From contig LSSN01001244.1 in assembly GCA_001970855.1 (NCBI GenBank), forward strand, positions 1 to 30,713: 30,713 nucleotides of DNA, read 5' to 3'. The position numbers and the translations under genes are program-made. This document shows, piece after piece, positions 9,502-18,753 of this stretch (position 1 is the stretch's first letter; each line of letters opens with the position of its first letter). The DNA is from Smittium culicis. Its lineage: Eukaryota > Kickxellomycota > Harpellomycetes > Harpellales > Legeriomycetaceae. The notes under the pieces were generated by a model that saw nothing but the letters and a program-made list of their open reading frames with translations, had not been told where the DNA came from and ran no database searches.

Positions 9502-9948
9502 ATGCCTTACCAAGTATCCTCGTTCTTTATGCCAAACAAAGCTAAACCACTAGCTTCGTACCCACACGCTAAGCGCGTCGGCCCATTCGTCTTCGTCAGC
9601 GGTATCTCCTCACGCCTGCCCGACGATTCCTACGCTGGCGTATCAGTAAATCCAGAAACCAACGAGCTCGTCCTCGACATCAAGGAGCAGACTAAAGCCG
9701 TCCTCGAAAACATCAAAGCCATCATTGTCGAGATGGGCGGTAAAGGTCTTGAGAACCTTGTTGACGTTACCGTGTTCCTCGCCAACATGAACGACTTTGA
9801 CCAATACAACTCGGTCTACAACCAGTACTTCGATGGTGCTAATGGGCCCGCCAGAACCACCGTCGAAATCAGCAGACTGCCCGGAAAGTTGCCCTCAAAA
9901 CTACTCATTGAAATCAAGTCCACTGCTTACATTCCCGAACTCAATTAA
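9502..9948 (+). CDS. 2-aminomuconate deaminase, RidA/YjgF fold
   Basis: The predicted cytosolic enzyme hydrolyses 2-aminomuconate to the 2-oxo acid (4-oxalocrotonate type) and ammonia, the step after the ALDH8A1-type dehydrogenase encoded next door. It is an intronless frame of 148 residues, typical of the RidA fold. Family marks include FVFVSGISSR (residues 29-38), an IKEQTKAVLENIKAI helix (60-74), GPARTTVEI (115-123) with Arg118 in the conserved carboxylate-binding position, and LLIEIKSTAYIP (134-145) with Glu137. The SGISSRxPDxxxAGV segment is as I recall it from 2-aminomuconate deaminases (NbaF/AmnD type) rather than generic housekeeping RidA. The start is the first ATG, after a purine-rich leader. 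Codons are strongly C-ending (9541-9600 has 35 G/C of 60), unlike the Vps23 and Mtg1 genes. A generic imine deaminase remains possible, but the neighbours make the specific role likely. Confidence 0.88.
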   Translation: MPYQVSSFFMPNKAKPLASYPHAKRVGPFVFVSGISSRLPDDSYAGVSVNPETNELVLDIKEQTKAVLENIKAIIVEMGGKGLENLVDVTVFLANMNDFDQYNSVYNQYFDGANGPARTTVEISRLPGKLPSKLLIEIKSTAYIPELN

Positions 9949-10388
9949 TCTCTTACCCTGCCTTTACCAAATACCACCCCCCCCCCTCATTTAATAATAC
10001 TCTTATCATTTTATCATAAAAAGATAACTTCTATACTTTTAAAATATATCATTATATTTAATATTAGCTTTTAAACACACTCACTCCTCATGAAAAATAC
10101 TGTGCATATCTATATTAAAATCCCACAAATACATACATTACCACACTTTATTGAAAAAAAAAACAAAAAAGAAAAAAAAAAGCATATAGAAATCATTTTA
10201 GAATTAATTTCAAGCGTATTATTTTAGTTAGATATGGAAAAGAAGATAAGTTAAATGGAATGAATTCAATTATAAGAATTAATTATTTTGCTTTTAAAAT
10301 TAGTATATAACAAAAAAAAAAAAGAAAAAAACTAGATGAACAAAATACAAGTTTTTTTTTTTTTAGAATAAGAAGGAAGAAAAAAAAA
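9949..10388. other. shared 3' region of convergent deaminase and dehydrogenase genes
   Basis: The two genes are tail to tail with 440 bp between their stop codons. The segment holds a C10 tract at 9977-9986, 29 bases after the deaminase stop, and several long A-rich runs (about 10150-10180 and 10311-10330). A T run at about 10351-10364 reads as poly(A) on the dehydrogenase strand. No additional gene is seen. Confidence 0.5.
9977..9986. repeat. C10 homopolymer after deaminase stop
   Basis: Ten consecutive C on the plus strand lie 29 bases past the deaminase stop codon, in the probable 3' UTR. Confidence 0.9.
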
Positions 10389-12198
10389 TTAGCCCAAAGT
10401 GATAGATTGTTGTTTAGTGAAGAAGTCGATACTGAACTTGCCGCCCTCAGTTCCGACACCAGATGCTTTGAACCCGCCGAATGGCATGTTCAAGTCGCGG
10501 ACCATCCAGCAGTTGCACCATACGAGTCCTGAAACGATCTGGCCAGCGACTCTGCGCAGTCTACCTTGATCCCTTGACCAGACGGTTGATGCGAGGCCAT
10601 ACTGCGTGTCGTTGGCAAGGCGGATCGCGTCCTCTTCGGTGTCGAATGGGATGATGGAGACGACAGGACCAAAGATTTCTTCTTGCACGATGCGCGAGTC
10701 TTGCTGCAAATTGGTGATTACGGTTGGTGCCATGAAGTACCCGTTTTCGAGATGTTCAACAGTTAATGCCCCAGTCGCGGAAATATCCTTGATGTGAGGG
10801 GAGACGGTTTGGTCAACGCAGAAATCGACGTCATAGCCGGCATCTTGCGCGTGCTTGACGTAGCTCTGGACCTTTTCAAAGTGAGGCTTGCTAACTAGCG
10901 GACCATAAAATGTCTTTGGGTTAGTTGGGTCGCCAACTATGACAGTGTCTCTAACAGCGCGCTTGTACTTGGCTACAAAGTCGTCGAAGATGCCTCTTTG
11001 CACGTACAAGCGTGAAGTGCAGAGACAAATCTCACCTTGGTTCTGGAAAGCGGAACGGACTGAAGTTTTTATAGCAAGGTCCAAGTCGCAGTCGTCAAAG
11101 ATGAGACCTGGGTTTTTACCGCCAAGTTCCAGCGATAGGTGCTTGAACATGGGAGCAGCAGCAGAAGCGATATGTTTACCGGTGATAGTTCCTCCGGTGA
11201 ATGAGACGAGTGGGATATCTTTATGAGTAACAATGGAGTTTCCAGTACTTTGACCAAGTCCGAAAACGATATTTACAACACCATCAGGAATTCCAGCTTG
11301 TTTGATGAGTTTTGTTAGCACTATAGATCAAATTGGATAAAAAGAGAAGAGTAAACATTAGATATATTTTGACTTATATAAAATAAAATAGAAGTATGGC
11401 CATTATAACTTAATAAAAAATAAAGGGAGGCCCTTACTCATTGCAGTTACACTGGTGAATTCGCTAGGTTTGCAAACACAGGTATTACCAGCTAAAGAAA
11501 TAAAAGTAAAAATTCGGGAACAAAGATTAGTATGATTTTTAAAGGAGTAGGTGGAACTAATTTAAGCATATAATAAGATAAAGCATTTTCTTAATTAAAA
11601 GGTTACCAGCGATACAAGGAGCGATCTTCCAAGATAGGAGGTATAAGGGTAAATTCCATGGGCTGATCAAACCGGCTACACCAACGGCGGATCTTTGTAC
11701 GTAGCTGAGGGCGTGACCGATGACGGGTTTGCCGTCTTGGGATATGTTTGCAGTGGGGTACGACATTTGGGAGGTGAATTCAGTCAAGTTCGATTCGATG
11801 TAGTCAGCGAAGTGGCGGAAGTTGGTAGCAGTTCTTGCGATGTCGACGTTTCTGGACATGAAGAGGGTCTTGCCTTGGTCCATGGTTTCAAAGTTGGCCA
11901 TGACTTCGTTGTTAGCATCTATTAAATCGGCTAGCTTGTGCATGTATCTGGCTCTTTCTTTTGGGTGTAGGGCAGACCATTGAGGGAAGGCTTTCTTTGC
12001 TTCGGAGGTGGCGAAGTCAACGTCAGCGGGTCCAGAGTCGGGGATCTGGCAAATTACAGTATCGGTAGAAGGATTCTTATTGTCAATGAAGTTATTTGAG
12101 ATGGGCTCGTACCATTTTCCGCCTATGAAGTTTTTGATTTGGATTTGGTCGACGTTTGGGACAGGGAGTTCAAGAGGTATGTTTGCAAGAGTAGCCAT
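10389..12198 (-). CDS. 2-aminomuconic semialdehyde dehydrogenase (ALDH8A1 type)
   Basis: This NAD-dependent aldehyde dehydrogenase should oxidise 2-aminomuconate 6-semialdehyde to 2-aminomuconate, directly after ACMSD. Three exons on the minus strand are 12198-11607, 11491-11438 and 11320-10389, joined in phase to give 525 residues. Splicing restores the conserved segment IAAGNTCVCKPSE (196-208). Visible motifs are SPWN with oxyanion Asn182, FTGGTITG (256-263), LELGGK with general-base Glu280, QNQGEICLCTSR (308-319) with catalytic Cys314, and EEIFGPV (429-435). QGEICLCTSR and the C-terminal LNMPFGGFKASGVG are characteristic of the ALDH8/AmnC/NbaE group rather than ALDH2 or betaine-aldehyde enzymes. 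The gene is convergent with the deaminase and divergent from ACMSD. The N-terminal ~20 residues precede the usual family start; no convincing targeting peptide is seen. Confidence 0.93.
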
Positions 12199-13505
12199 GA
12201 TTAATTTATATTCTTGTTATAAGTACGGAAATGGATTGGTTGTTTTAATTAGAGGTTTAGCTTAGTAACTATTTTGAATAAAATATAATGGCTGTATATA
12301 AATAAAGAAAAACAAATGGTTAAGAATTGAGATTTCGAACAGTTAAAGACAGTTAAACTCTAAAAAAAAAAATTATAAAGTTAAGCAGCATAGAAGTGAT
12401 TTTAATATTTTCAGTAAATAAAAATGCTTTTTTAGCTCGAGCAATTTAACTTTTTAATAGATCCAATATGATTTGTTGAGTAATTAAATGATAAGTTTAT
12501 ATGTCCCAAAAAAAGAAAGAAAAAGTAACCTAAAGCTGGTGTTCAACTATGAAACAGCACGATTTAAGGGGTTAAGTGAATGCTTCTTGAGTCTATACTT
12601 ATTTACTAATTATTTTAATAAGGGTTTGTTACTTAATAGCAAAGGGGGTAGTGAAATCTATACAAGTCCGTGGGAAAATATAAAACTAAGTAAGAGTTTA
12701 AATTTTGACTGAAAAAAGTGTCATCTAAAATCAGTGCATAAAAATAGGTGTTTTGTGAAATGGTTATGGCGTTTGATGTTTTAATAGGCTTAGCATAAAT
12801 AGAAAACAAAAAACATAGTGCAGAATAGCGCTTAGTGTCACTTTTAGTGTAAATAATTGATGTCGTTTATTGAGTATTTTTTTTTCCGTGTCACTAATTA
12901 ATGTTAAATTTCAGATTCAGATCACATTCCAAAAAAAATCAAAGGATTAATTTTGATAAAAAATAATAAATAGTAGATCTAATAGGCTAACGAGAAAAAA
13001 AGCATTGGCAAATAGACATTGTAAAAAAGTTGTCGATTAGTTCTCAGAGTAAGTAATATTGAGGTGAGATGATAAAATGGCGAATAAGTGTTCAGTATTA
13101 AGAGTTGCCGAAATAACATTTTTTAGGGAGCATTTTACAGAGGTTTTTGTTCGTTTCACCTTAAAAATAGTTATAAGGTATGGGTTTAAAAGATATGAAT
13201 AGTAAAAATAATGATTAATCATAAAGGAATGATTATCAGGTTAAAATATCTCAGAGGCTTAGATATTTTGAGGTTAGAAGATTGAATATTTTTTTTGATT
13301 AGTAAATAGCACTGGCTCTTAGCGAATTCAGCATATTTTAAATCAACTAAGGTTTTTTTGATTTCGCTTATCGAGGTATCTTAATAGTCGTATTTTAGGC
13401 AATTGGTCTATTAGTTATTTGAATTTAAACTTCAGTAGCTTTAATTTTAGAAGAGAAATATTGAGTAAAACAGATATTGCTATGCTTTTAAGGTTGAAAT
13501 TGAAG

Positions 13506-13527
13506 TATACAAACAAAAGTTTGTATA
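13506..13527. repeat. 9-bp inverted repeat with AAAA loop
   Basis: The arms tatacaaac (13506-13514) and gtttgtata (13519-13527) pair perfectly around aaaa. It lies inside the divergent intergenic region. It may be a dyad binding site or chance in AT-rich DNA. Confidence 0.35.
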
Positions 13528-14324
13528 TTAGTGTGGGAGAATTGAACTATTTTGGCAAAGTCAAAATAGACTGATATTTATAAGATAGATGATATTATAG
13601 TAGCCCACTGGCGCTAAAAATGCATTAGATGATTTCTTTTTGTTGTAAATTACTAATTTGTACGCACCTGAAATCAAACATGAAACAATCTATTTTGCGG
13701 ATCAGTAGTAACGTAAAAAGATATCTGAAACATGCCGTGGGAAGTTTCGACTGGCCAACAGGAGTGACTTGATCACTCGCCGCAAGACGATGTGCCAGCT
13801 ATTCATCCTTCTCTTAATCATCACGAATTTATCAGTATAGCACTTCTACTACTTTTAGCCAGCGGAGTCTAATTGGCTCGAAGCCTCTGACATAATACAT
13901 TGAGCTGATTATTGGCTACTATAGTGGGTGTATTGGAGCGTCATTAGCTGGCTGAAGAAAAATGCACTTATAGCTTCCAGAGTTTAGAAGTATAAGATAT
14001 ACTTTCTTGCCATAAGCTGCTCTCTAGTGACACTTATCAAAAAAAAAATGTATGGGGATAAAAACCAGTACCAAACCAGTAAGTAAAGATAATAATTGTC
14101 ACATTAATTCCATAATTTATTATCTACAGGGATTACTTTTTAGAGCTAAATAAGCATTACAAATTATTACAAAGCAAACATACTTTTCAGGTGTCTAAAC
14201 TTGCTGTCCAATAGATGATATAACTGCTACTGGGTATTGCAAATCTATAGATAAATCAGAAAAGGACGGGCCAGTTAGGGTGCGAGATAGGTATGTAAAT
14301 ATGCCGTCTTGCTTTCATTTGCCC

Positions 14325-14357
14325 ATTCGATTATTTTCCGCTTTTAGCTAATCGAAT
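14325..14357. promoter_or_regulatory. spaced inverted repeat upstream of ACMSD
   Basis: The arms attcgatta (14325-14333) and taatcgaat (14349-14357) are perfect reverse complements separated by 15 bases, about 600 bp upstream of the ACMSD ATG and inside the divergent promoter region. The spacing of about 24 bp centre to centre would suit a dimeric regulator such as a fungal zinc-cluster protein, but this is inference only. Confidence 0.3.
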
Positions 14358-14849
14358 CCGTGAGAAAGAATTCCAAATTCAAACAAGCGCCCCTTTTTTA
14401 TTAATCTCTCCTACTCGTCTCTTCGCTTAGAAAAAATATCTAGAAGCTGAAAAAAAAATCACATTACCACCTCATTTGTCAGGCTTAAATGTAACTCTGG
14501 CTATTTGTCTGGTAAAAACTTATGCGCCAAAAGAGTAGAAAACAACTAAATATTCTGGCATACGGCCCAAGCTCCAATGAAATAATACCCAATTAATACT
14601 CCGCAAAAAATGTCACTTACCACCCTTATTTTTGGCTTCTGTTTTGTAAGCTCACCGTCAGCTTAAATCGCCAGAAATCAAAGCTCCCACCACTGCCCCC
14701 TTTTTTTAAAGATGAACACTTATCTAACCTCTACTCGAGCTTTTCTTTTTTCCATATAAAGCATTCCCAAAATGCCGAACTTATATTGCTCTTAGCAATC
14801 ATTCCTCTTAAATCTTCTAGAGTATTTCTATTAGCTTACCCATTAATAC

Positions 14850-14869
14850 TATATATAGTACTATATATA
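14850..14869 (+). promoter_or_regulatory. 20-bp TATA palindrome, probable ACMSD core promoter
   Basis: A perfect 20-bp palindrome centred on agtact carries TATATA on both strands and ends about 90 bp before the ACMSD ATG, a usual TATA-box distance for a short leader. The sequence between it and the ATG is C/T-rich, compatible with a transcription start region. Confidence 0.4.
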
Positions 14870-14958
14870 ACACCCATTTTACCAAATATACTGTCCCCTC
14901 TTACATTTTACAACTACCCTTATACAACACATCATACTTATATATTACCGTACTAAAA

Positions 14959-16200
14959 ATGCCTCAAAAATACCTTAAAATCGATTTTCATACTCATATC
15001 CTACCTGAAAATATCCCCGACTTTGAAAAGAAGTTTGGATATGGCGGCTTTATAAAATTACAACATAACGAAAAGGTACATTAATTCTCTTATATCAATT
15101 TCTTGAAATTCCTCTAAAACTTTATTTTCTTAGTCCTAAACCCCATTTTTTGTATCTTTATAGGAAGCGGACAAAATGGATATGATTAAAGATGGAAAGA
15201 ATTTTAGAACAATCGAATGTAACTGCTACTCCCCCACAAAACGTATCGAAGAAAATGAATTAACTGGCGTCAACGTTCAGGTTCTTTCTACCGTTCCTGT
15301 CATGTTCAGCTACTGGGCAAAGCCATACGACGCTTTAGAAGTCTCTGTCTTTTTAAACGACCACATTGCTGACATTGTTCAACAGCACCCCAAAAAGTAT
15401 ATTGGACTTGGAACTGTTCCCCTACAAAACATCGACTACGCTATCAAGGAACTTAAAAGATGCGTCAAAGAACTCGGTCTAGCTGGCGTCCAAATCGGCT
15501 CTCACGTAAATGGAACTAACTTGGGCGAACCTGTTTTTGAACCCTTCTGGAAAGCTGTTGAAGAACTTGACACCGTCGTCTTCATCCACCCTTGGGACAT
15601 GGACCAAGGCTCTCGCAACTCAAAATACTGGTTCCCTTGGCTCATTGGAATGGTATGCCCTATTTTCTATTTTAAACTGCCCCCCCCCCTACCTCAATTT
15701 CATTATTTTACTATAGCCATTACATTATTTATATTAATTCTCCTATTTGTTCCATGTATATTTTTTTTCAATAGCCCACTGAAACTACAACCTCAATCTG
15801 TTCATTGATGTTCAGCGGCATTTACGATAGGTACCCCAACCTCAAAATCGTATATGCCCATGGCGGTGGCTCATTCCTCGGTACTCTTGGCAGAATCATC
15901 CACGGTTACGAATGCCGCCCCGACCTTGTTGCATGTGACACCGTCAACCACCCCCTTAAAACGCTCAAAAAATTGTATTTCGATTCCCTCGTCCATGACG
16001 AAGACGCTCTCAAGCTCATGATTTCTAAGATCGGTACCGACAGAATCGTACTTGGCTCTGACTACCCCTTCCCCCTTGGTGAACAGATGCCTGGTCAGCT
16101 AGTCGAAGGCTGCGACTGGATCTCTCATGAAGATAAACTAAAAATCCTAAGTCAAAATGCCCTAAAACTCTTCAATCTCGATGCTAGTAAATTCGTTTAA
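14959..16200 (+). CDS. 2-amino-3-carboxymuconate-6-semialdehyde decarboxylase (ACMSD)
   Basis: This zinc-dependent amidohydrolase-superfamily decarboxylase converts ACMS to 2-aminomuconate semialdehyde, diverting kynurenine-pathway carbon away from quinolinate and NAD. Exons are 14959-15075, 15164-15652 and 15775-16200, all phase 0, encoding 343 residues; the human enzyme has about 336. The metal site is visible as DFHTH with His11 and His13, IHPW with His181, YAHGGG with the catalytic-position His231, and GSDYPFPLGE with Asp298. Arg54 (NFRTIE) and Arg242 fit the two substrate-binding arginines known from the bacterial enzyme. The start at 14959 places KIDFHTHILP at residues 7-16, as in the family. 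Intron 2 carries a C10 tract. Codons are mostly C-ending, as in the other two pathway genes. Confidence 0.96.
15680..15689. repeat. C10 homopolymer in ACMSD intron 2
   Basis: Ten consecutive C on the plus strand begin 27 bases after the inferred intron donor at 15653. The tract falls between two exons of confident frame, so it does not disturb the coding sequence if splicing is as inferred. Confidence 0.9.
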
Positions 16201-16547: not shown

Positions 16548-18270
16548 TCACAGCCCACCCCTGTACCTTGAGCGTAGACCAACTTGGTCGTTTGATAGAA
16601 ACAACGAGCTAATCAAGCTATTAGATTTGGCAAAATATTCGTTTGTAACTTTCATAAATTTTTCGTTCTTCAACCTCTCTTCCAACGTATTAATGCTATT
16701 AAAGTCGGACACTTTAGTATTTATCCCTACCATCTCTCCCGAATCTCCCTTATCTTCTCTGATCTTGTCTAGGTTGATTTCCAGCAATTTTTTGTAGTAC
16801 CCACCAGACATTCTAGGAGCTGAAATTTCGCTTTTAGCCTTTATATTCCTAGACTTGTTCATGTTGAATGTTTTTAGCCTAGAACTTAAATTGGAATTGT
16901 TTAGGTCTGCTCCAGAGAAGATGTTACTTATTCCTACCTTCGCTCTCACGTTTCCATCAAACTGCAAGCTATTTTGCTCTGATGGCGCTTGGATTTGTTT
17001 GGATGTAGAGCTTGACTTTATATCGAAATTTGTGTTGGGCGAATTCAATAAAGTTTTTGCATTGATATCGTCTTTTGATGAACTATCGCTTGTTTCAGAA
17101 TTTACTTCATTTCTAGCTGCTCCATCATTTGCTTTAGACTTTCTTTGGTACCTTTTCCTGAAGGAAAATCGGTTTTCATTGGTTAAATTGTCTAGATCAT
17201 CACTCAATGAATGTGTATTTTGGTTTGAATCCGGCATTCCAAACACTGTACGATTATACACCAAATCATCAACTGTTTGGCGATTAGCTTCGATTAGTGA
17301 GTTTATTTCGGCTAAGGCTTTTTTAAACTGCTCACTTGTAGACGTATATGCACTAGTACACTCATCTAGCACTTCTTTGGACTCTACTGAGTACTTTGCT
17401 AATTTGTCAAGGCCATCCTCTATTTTTTCAAAGCGATTAAAGTTATTTTCACTAAGCTTGGATATTACAGTTTCTAGCTTTGCTAGACGGGTTTCGAATT
17501 CGTACTTTTCTTCCAGGTTTTTAGAAATTTCAGTTTGCATATTATCTAATGAAAATGTTGTTATAATTCGATTTTAAAAAGATTAAAATTATTAAAAAAA
17601 TTTAGATTTCTTGTAAAATAAATATTTTAAAACAAAAAAATATCAACATATCTTACTTAGAGTTAGTTGTAAAGAATTGAAGCGGGTATCGACGTAAGAT
17701 TTAAGTTTATCTAGCTCATTAATAAGTAGCTTTGCATCAGAAACATCAAGCTCAAGACGTGCTTGATTTTCAGAAAGATGGTATAGATTTTCAGTATTTT
17801 TCTTGCTTTCGTATTCTAGTTTATACAAAAAATCCCTCAAATCTTCCTGCTCTTGATTTATCTTGTCGAACTGCATGTTACATTTGAGATTTTGGTCATT
17901 TTGGTGGGATAATAAATCAATCTATGATATATAAAATAAAGGAATATTCATTAGTGCCTCCACTTTTAAAAAATAATAATTATACAGGTATAAAAAAAAT
18001 TAAGCTTACAGATAATTTTGCCTCTTCCAGACCCTTTTCTAACTTATTTACTCTTGCGAATAAAAGTTTGTTTTGCTCAAAAAAGTTGACTCCTATAGAG
18101 GCAGCCATTTCCATATTCGATTTATACTCCTGGACCATGCTCTTCAACTTTTGTACGTCATTTTCGTTACTGATATCTGGAGGAAAATAGCAAACAGATT
18201 GAATATACTTTAAATGTTTTTGAATTGCAGAAATTATCAGCGATTTAGTTTAAATACCTATTTCTTCCAT
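16548..18270 (-). CDS. coiled-coil protein with CC1-box-like motif
   Basis: I do not recognise an orthologue. Four exons on the minus strand (18270-18258, 18176-18010, 17921-17657, 17545-16548) join in phase to 480 residues. The first exon encodes only four full codons, so the start rests on splice logic. Residues 12-150 and about 151-245 are heptad-like and rich in Leu, Glu and Lys, with few prolines: probable coiled coils. Near the N-terminus, MAASIGVNFFEQN (28-40) resembles the CC1 box (A-A-x-x-G, then two large hydrophobics and x-x-N) of BICD, Spindly, HAP1 and TRAK, which binds dynein light intermediate chain. The rest is Ser/Asn-rich and probably disordered, ending in a basic SRYRGGL tail. 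A role as a motor adaptor or scaffold is inference; a general structural coiled coil is the alternative. The gene is convergent with ACMSD and shows no link to that pathway. Confidence 0.8.
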
Positions 18271-18753
18271 GGTGGGGCGGGTAATAATGATTTAGTGGAA
18301 ATATACAAACATGTGCAGAATTGGAATAAATTAATTAAAAAGACAGCGAGTATGAAAGAGTGTATGTGCTTTATAGTATGTAGATTGTTTTAATATAGCT
18401 TAAAACTTGAAGATTTAGACTACCTCAATGCTTAAAATATATACAAAAGCAATAGCAACTAACCTATGTGAACTTTTTTAGATATTAAGGTTACTCTACC
18501 TTGATTTTTATATGCGTGTTTATTATTCGCCTATTGGAAATCTCTGTTTATCATTCAGCTACAAATAATCTGCAATCTTGCAATCTAATTACTATTTTTT
18601 ATTTTTTTCACAATACGCTCTTTTTTTCGCAACTACATTCTCGAGTACCATTTAATTTACCACTGTAGAATTTATAGTAAACAATAAAACTATAAAATTC
18701 CAAAGTCTACCAATGAATGTTACTACTTTATATATCTAGCTTCAGCGCTTTGC

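Follow-up and report, generated by a model that had tools for sequence, protein, structure and literature searches.

A putative catabolic kynurenine-pathway gene cluster in the insect-gut fungus Smittium culicis

Three neighbouring genes of Smittium culicis raise the question of whether enzymes acting on 2-amino-3-carboxymuconate semialdehyde and its products are encoded as a functional unit in this fungus, and whether the third gene, a member of the RidA family, belongs to that unit. The window (the whole stretch of DNA analysed, contig C758; 30713 bases, GC content 28 %) comes from a gut fungus of insect larvae (Harpellales, Kickxellomycota). Grouped within 6.7 kb are genes for ACMSD, for an ALDH8A1-type dehydrogenase, the presumed 2-aminomuconate semialdehyde dehydrogenase (AMSDH), and for a RidA-family protein. 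Very probably the three make up a metabolic gene cluster of this fungus that serves the kynurenine pathway's catabolic branch. In such a cluster ACMSD would decarboxylate 2-amino-3-carboxymuconate semialdehyde, diverting it from the spontaneous formation of quinolinate and hence NAD; the dehydrogenase would convert 2-aminomuconate semialdehyde and NAD+ to 2-aminomuconate, and the RidA protein would release ammonia from the latter to leave an oxo-acid (2-hydroxymuconate or 2-oxo-3-hexenedioate). The features are as follows.

9502..9948, plus strand: candidate RidA-family 2-aminomuconate deaminase, 148 amino acids, intronless (PF01042 at 90 bits, PDB match, bacterial context, tree)
11607..12198, minus strand: exon 1 of the ALDH8A1-type AMSDH (splice model; spliced protein 100 % identical to the deposited 525-amino-acid protein)
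11438..11491, minus strand: exon 2 of the ALDH8A1-type AMSDH (splice model)
10389..11320, minus strand: exon 3 of the ALDH8A1-type AMSDH (splice model; residue alignment with PfAMSDH)
12199..14958, no strand: intergenic gap of 2.76 kb, possibly holding a common control region, flanked by ALDH and ACMSD in divergent orientation
14959..15075, plus strand: exon 1 of ACMSD, holding H11 and H13 (splice model)
15164..15652, plus strand: exon 2 of ACMSD (splice model)
15775..16200, plus strand: exon 3 of ACMSD (splice model; residue alignment with PfACMSD)

The dehydrogenase gene encodes 525 amino acids and is interrupted by two introns (115 and 117 base pairs); the ACMSD gene encodes 343 amino acids and likewise has two (88 and 122 base pairs). 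All four introns, 88–122 base pairs in size, have GT..AG ends, in keeping with the initial annotation, which had placed introns in two of the genes and whose coordinates proved exact. Spliced ACMSD (P0001) and ALDH (P0241) are 100 % identical over their full length to deposited S. culicis proteins.

ACMSD matches PF04909 at 141 bits. Among solved structures, human ACMSD (2wm1, E 2.1e-116) matches it best, and PfACMSD (2hbv, E 5.6e-64) less closely. All seven metal- and substrate-binding residues are kept: H11, H13, R54, H181, H231, R242 and D298 correspond to H9, H11, R51, H177, H228, R239 and D294 of PfACMSD, which we take to be its zinc ligands (H9, H11, H177, H228, D294) and substrate arginines (R51, R239). 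The 12 matches listed after the protein itself show 52–75 % identity, and 9 of them are named fungi. In the S. culicis assembly searched (56.3 Mb, 2529 contigs), PF04909 was found only at this gene, as two exon matches among four scored candidates. Assignment to PF04909 and, putatively, to EC 4.1.1.45 is supported by the sequence. For the dehydrogenase, eight PDB sequences match at E <= 1e-100; seven of these, the best three among them, are 2-aminomuconate (6-)semialdehyde dehydrogenases. Where the 120 matches listed carry a name, it is in many cases 2-aminomuconic semialdehyde dehydrogenase or ALDH8A1. Residues R122, N182, E280, C314 and R490 (5/5 kept) correspond to R120, N169, E268, C302 and R464 of PfAMSDH, of which C302, E268 and N169 are presumably catalytic and R120 and R464 presumably bind the substrate. 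The next-best match elsewhere in the genome has 33 % identity. Motifs, PDB matches and catalytic residues thus agree with the enzyme families named in the initial annotation.

Linkage in relatives was read from equal contig sizes (in bases) and from the locus tags of protein matches rather than from gene maps. By this reading, all Harpellales species (6/6) in which both proteins are listed have ACMSD linked to the dehydrogenase. Three of the six (S. culicis, S. mucronatum and S. simulii) have the RidA gene linked to this pair as well. The clustering proposed at the outset is supported.

S. culicis, contig of 30713 bases: ACMSD, ALDH and RidA
S. mucronatum, contig of 53933 bases: ACMSD, ALDH and RidA
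S. simulii, contig of 98954 bases: ACMSD and ALDH, tags 004329 and 004330; RidA, tag 004328
Furculomyces boomerangus, contig of 64488 bases: ACMSD and ALDH, tags 000083 and 000084
S. megazygosporum, contig of 45132 bases: ACMSD and ALDH, tags 003178 and 003180
Zancudomyces culisetae, contig of 60011 bases: ACMSD and ALDH

If the tags follow position, the S. simulii genes (P0124, P0005, P0244) would lie in the order RidA–ACMSD–ALDH, as against RidA–ALDH–ACMSD in S. culicis, which suggests that gene order has been shuffled between these two species and the grouping kept. The RidA gene of S. angustum is on a 56187-base contig to which no ACMSD or ALDH among the matches listed is tied. One further equality of contig size (P0077 and P0339, 2140 bases) was rejected; the two derive from different sources and the length is too short for both genes. 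A by-eye comparison of the 120 matches listed for each protein, a weak instrument, revealed no ACMSD–ALDH linkage in named fungi outside the Harpellales.

The best PDB match of the RidA protein is the 2-aminomuconate deaminase AmnE (6izh, E 1.7e-30; runner-up 6.7e-23), and RidA-family genes occur at three places in the S. culicis genome. Bacterial relatives were collected by a contig scan with a 21-protein alignment and two peptide patterns; of at least 556 confirmed stretches the best 80 were retained, and up to 10 kb of flanking sequence was fetched per side. At least one of ACMSD, AMSDH, HAAO and KYNU was matched in the flanks of 76/80 relatives, and at least two in 60/80. Gene identity is unsure for the ACMSD matches in these loci, 41 of 55 being below 30 % identity; when ACMSD is left out, at least one gene is matched in 75/80 and at least two in 50/80. 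For a paired control, 20 of these genomes were searched with another S. culicis RidA, which gave 19 loci around the best non-deaminase copy. Any of the four genes was found near the deaminase-type RidA in 19/19 cases and near the housekeeping RidA of the same genomes in 0/19.

A RidA tree (105 rows, 143 columns), in which the bootstrap was not settled and several branches are long, separates 17 housekeeping rows from the other 88, including Smittium, with branch values of 99/98. The 84 deaminase-type rows are made up of the 80 loci, three metagenome proteins and AmnE. R38 is present in 84/84 deaminase-type and 4/4 Smittium rows and in 0/17 housekeeping rows; for K139 the corresponding counts are 82/84, 4/4 and 0/17. 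H22 (84/84, 4/4 and 1/17) counts for less, because it falls within one of the retrieval patterns, carried by 58/80 rows, and its conservation is partly built in. It is fairly clear from these comparisons that the RidA protein sides with AmnE and the cluster-borne bacterial RidA proteins, apart from housekeeping RidA, and the expectation that it would lie outside the housekeeping imine-deaminase clade is upheld.

Comparison with AmnE of Pseudomonas sp. AP-3, the best solved match, reveals both likeness and difference. The cleft, as far as it is described in the available text of the AmnE report (PMC6742747), is mostly kept: S35, G36, R117 and K135 are present, and E88 is replaced by Asp, as in 74/84 deaminase-type rows. 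The same text attributes the AmnE hexamer to R56 and to the loop Lp3 with H123, and in the portion available it does not tie R56 or H123 to activity. Neither hexamer determinant is retained in Smittium. R56, rare among deaminase-type rows (2/84), is E/E/T/T in the four Smittium proteins, and H123 is Ser in 4/4, with His kept in 75/84 deaminase-type rows. Additionally, three extra residues lie between R117 and K135 in 4/4 Smittium proteins and in 0/84 deaminase-type rows. Judged from its residues, the Smittium deaminase is probably a trimer or otherwise assembled.

The remaining enzymes of the kynurenine pathway are encoded elsewhere in the genome. HAAO, recognized by Pfam and PDB matches, is found on C1050, C1694 and C2499 (98.4–99.9 % identity over 3.4 kb) and not on C758, kynureninase on C2347, IDO matches on C882, C1059 and C632, KMO exons on C1114, C1905 and C2157 (for the C1114 exon, kynurenine 3-monooxygenase accounts for 10/10 PDB matches), and QPRT on C1665. 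As the upstream enzymes and QPRT are present, routes from tryptophan to NAD and to the ACMSD branch are both open in principle, and IDO, KMO, kynureninase and HAAO would supply the substrate of the cluster. The enzyme activities and co-expression of the genes are predicted, and in the insect gut the cluster may serve to remove or salvage tryptophan, kynurenine or 3-hydroxyanthranilate. The HAAO, KMO and squalene-epoxidase (C1769/C2483) loci are each present on two or three near-identical contigs (98.4–99.9 %), pointing to alleles or assembly redundancy. Unlike these, the sequence of the 2.76 kb gap was found once: its sole match in its own genome is itself, and a repeated element is not supported.

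Several observations weigh against a functional three-gene cluster, among them the low identity of the bacterial ACMSD matches, the partly built-in conservation of H22 and, for the RidA protein, the Asp at E88, the Ser at H123 and the insertion. The strands are mixed, with RidA and ACMSD on the plus strand and ALDH on the minus strand, so that RidA is convergent with ALDH, and a long gap separates the divergent ALDH and ACMSD genes. Within their 600 upstream bases the three genes have no word of 8–10 bases with at least three G/C in common. Counts of such words of 7/8/9/10 bases were 4/0/0/0, against means of 3.6/3.1/5.4/7.7 for random intergenic triplets drawn from the same contig, and a common upstream motif was rejected as no more frequent than chance. 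HAAO and kynureninase, which the initial annotation had proposed to seek nearby, are on other contigs, as is KMO. No RidA of Zancudomyces, Furculomyces or S. megazygosporum is among the 120 matches listed, so that half of the six species may lack the third gene. An approximately unbiased (AU) test tolerated (p 0.40) a position of the Smittium RidA outside all deaminase-type rows from bacteria. ACMSD had no match in NCBIfam; the matches shown for RidA (3 of 3) and for ALDH (25 of 42) are all below cut-off, and the names of the proteins are therefore based on PDB matches, homologues and residues. PF01361 (the 4-oxalocrotonate tautomerase family) was not found in the genome, where an intron-split domain of 60 residues could be missed, and two FAA_hydrolase-family genes are of unclear role, which leaves a bacterial-style downstream route without support. 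With HAAO, KYNU and KMO elsewhere and no tautomerase found, growth on tryptophan as a carbon and nitrogen source, as the initial annotation suggested, is conjectural.

The same mixed orientation and long gap would fit three unrelated metabolic genes that are adjacent by chance. However, ACMSD and the ALDH8A1-type dehydrogenase are each found once in 56 Mb and yet lie 2.8 kb apart, and their linkage in all six listed species largely contradicts chance, so that this explanation is barely credible. It is rather unlikely that ACMSD and the dehydrogenase are a functional pair with a general imine deaminase as a chance neighbour. In favour of this, the RidA gene lacks introns and converges on ALDH, the matches listed include no RidA for half of the six species that have the pair, and deamination of 2-aminomuconate is possibly non-enzymatic according to the available text of PMC7842363. 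Its linkage in three species, with adjacent locus tags in S. simulii, the presence of R38 and K139, the bacterial context with its paired control, and the two other RidA-family genes in the genome all argue instead for membership in the cluster.

Transfer of the RidA gene from a flavobacterium into a pre-existing fungal ACMSD–ALDH pair would account for its lack of introns, for ACMSD matches led by fungi and ALDH matches led by Kickxellomycotina fungi, and for the 120 RidA matches listed, whose named organisms other than Smittium are Bacteroidota. The protein search was word-limited, however, and deaminases of Ascomycota may simply be missing among those matches. In the tree, Smittium falls outside the Bacteroidota rows, weakly beside one row each of Myxococcota, Pseudomonadota and a metagenome (76/89), and a placement inside the main Bacteroidota clade of 50 rows is disfavoured (p-AU 0.024, for a group picked after seeing the tree). 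Such a transfer is considered very unlikely.

Clusters of this kind are known from other organisms. The initial annotation held that these genes are not generally thought of as clustered in eukaryotes, a view contradicted by a 3-hydroxyanthranilate catabolic cluster of 3HAO, ACMSD, AMSDH and a recurrent YjgF/RidA gene published for Ascomycota (Martins et al. 2021, PMC7842363); the available text of that report proposes the YjgF-family gene as a 2-aminomuconate deaminase. As far as that text goes, the Ascomycota cluster resembles that of S. culicis in grouping ACMSD, AMSDH and a RidA-family putative deaminase in a fungal genome, and differs in including 3HAO, plus further syntenic genes in aspergilli. 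In S. culicis, ACMSD and AMSDH are in proximity (2.76 kb) and 3HAO is on other contigs. Among bacteria, the nba genes of 2-nitrobenzoate degraders form kynurenine and 3-hydroxyanthranilate catabolic loci. The bacterial loci collected here share the RidA type near AMSDH, KYNU, HAAO or ACMSD matches, and they hold KYNU (52/80) and HAAO (18/80), neither of which is linked in S. culicis. Animal ACMSD and ALDH8A1 are the same enzyme types (55–57 and 49–54 % identity, respectively, among the animal matches listed); no gene cluster is known for them, nor is a deaminase gene known to be assigned in animals.

Three of the bacterial loci (L023, L068 and L091; one Myxococcales, two Saprospiraceae) carry, near RidA, an ACMSD with 49–52 % identity to fungal ACMSD, and Flavobacteriaceae loci carry an ACMSD-like match of 25–29 %. 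Perhaps two ACMSD types occur in similar bacterial clusters.

Clusters of similar make-up have been described from moulds and bacteria, so that the S. culicis cluster is a distant addition to a known type and the earlier claim of novelty is weakened. Among the open-licence papers listed in searches by lineage and by enzyme name, no title or abstract opening reports the cluster in Smittium, Harpellales or Zoopagomycota. What is new is the module in Kickxellomycota, its linkage and the insertion in the Smittium deaminases. The fungal 3-hydroxyanthranilate catabolic cluster would thereby be extended beyond Ascomycota to insect-gut symbionts of an early-diverging lineage, with a eukaryotic candidate, and a residue signature, for the ill-defined 2-aminomuconate deaminase step; a connection to host kynurenine chemistry is suggested. 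A speculative and, on present evidence, doubtful extension is that the Harpellales built the cluster independently of Ascomycota around an ancient fungal ACMSD and ALDH8A1, recruited a 2-aminomuconate deaminase of altered, non-hexameric structure, and obtain ammonia, perhaps together with 2-oxoadipate (from which fungi make lysine), from products of the tryptophan and 3-hydroxykynurenine of the insect host.

The window genes recognized besides the three are housekeeping genes: a ubiquinol-cytochrome c reductase hinge protein (QCR6-type), a Vps23/TSG101-type protein with UEV and Vps23 core domains, and an apparent MTG1-like GTPase, named from its sequence, of which an 84-amino-acid piece checked had no Pfam match. 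Scans of the window for tRNA and Rfam families gave no match. An apparently multi-exon coiled-coil gene lies at about 16548–18275 on the minus strand, with a 330-amino-acid open reading frame (16548–17540) that has no Pfam match; a 240-amino-acid frame at 16855–17577 overlaps it on the opposite strand and is probably spurious. Runs of 9–11 C occur in this 28 % GC contig at 9977–9986, 15680–15689, 16209–16217 and 20027–20037; two of them lie shortly downstream of the RidA and ACMSD stop codons, and another falls within ACMSD intron 2.

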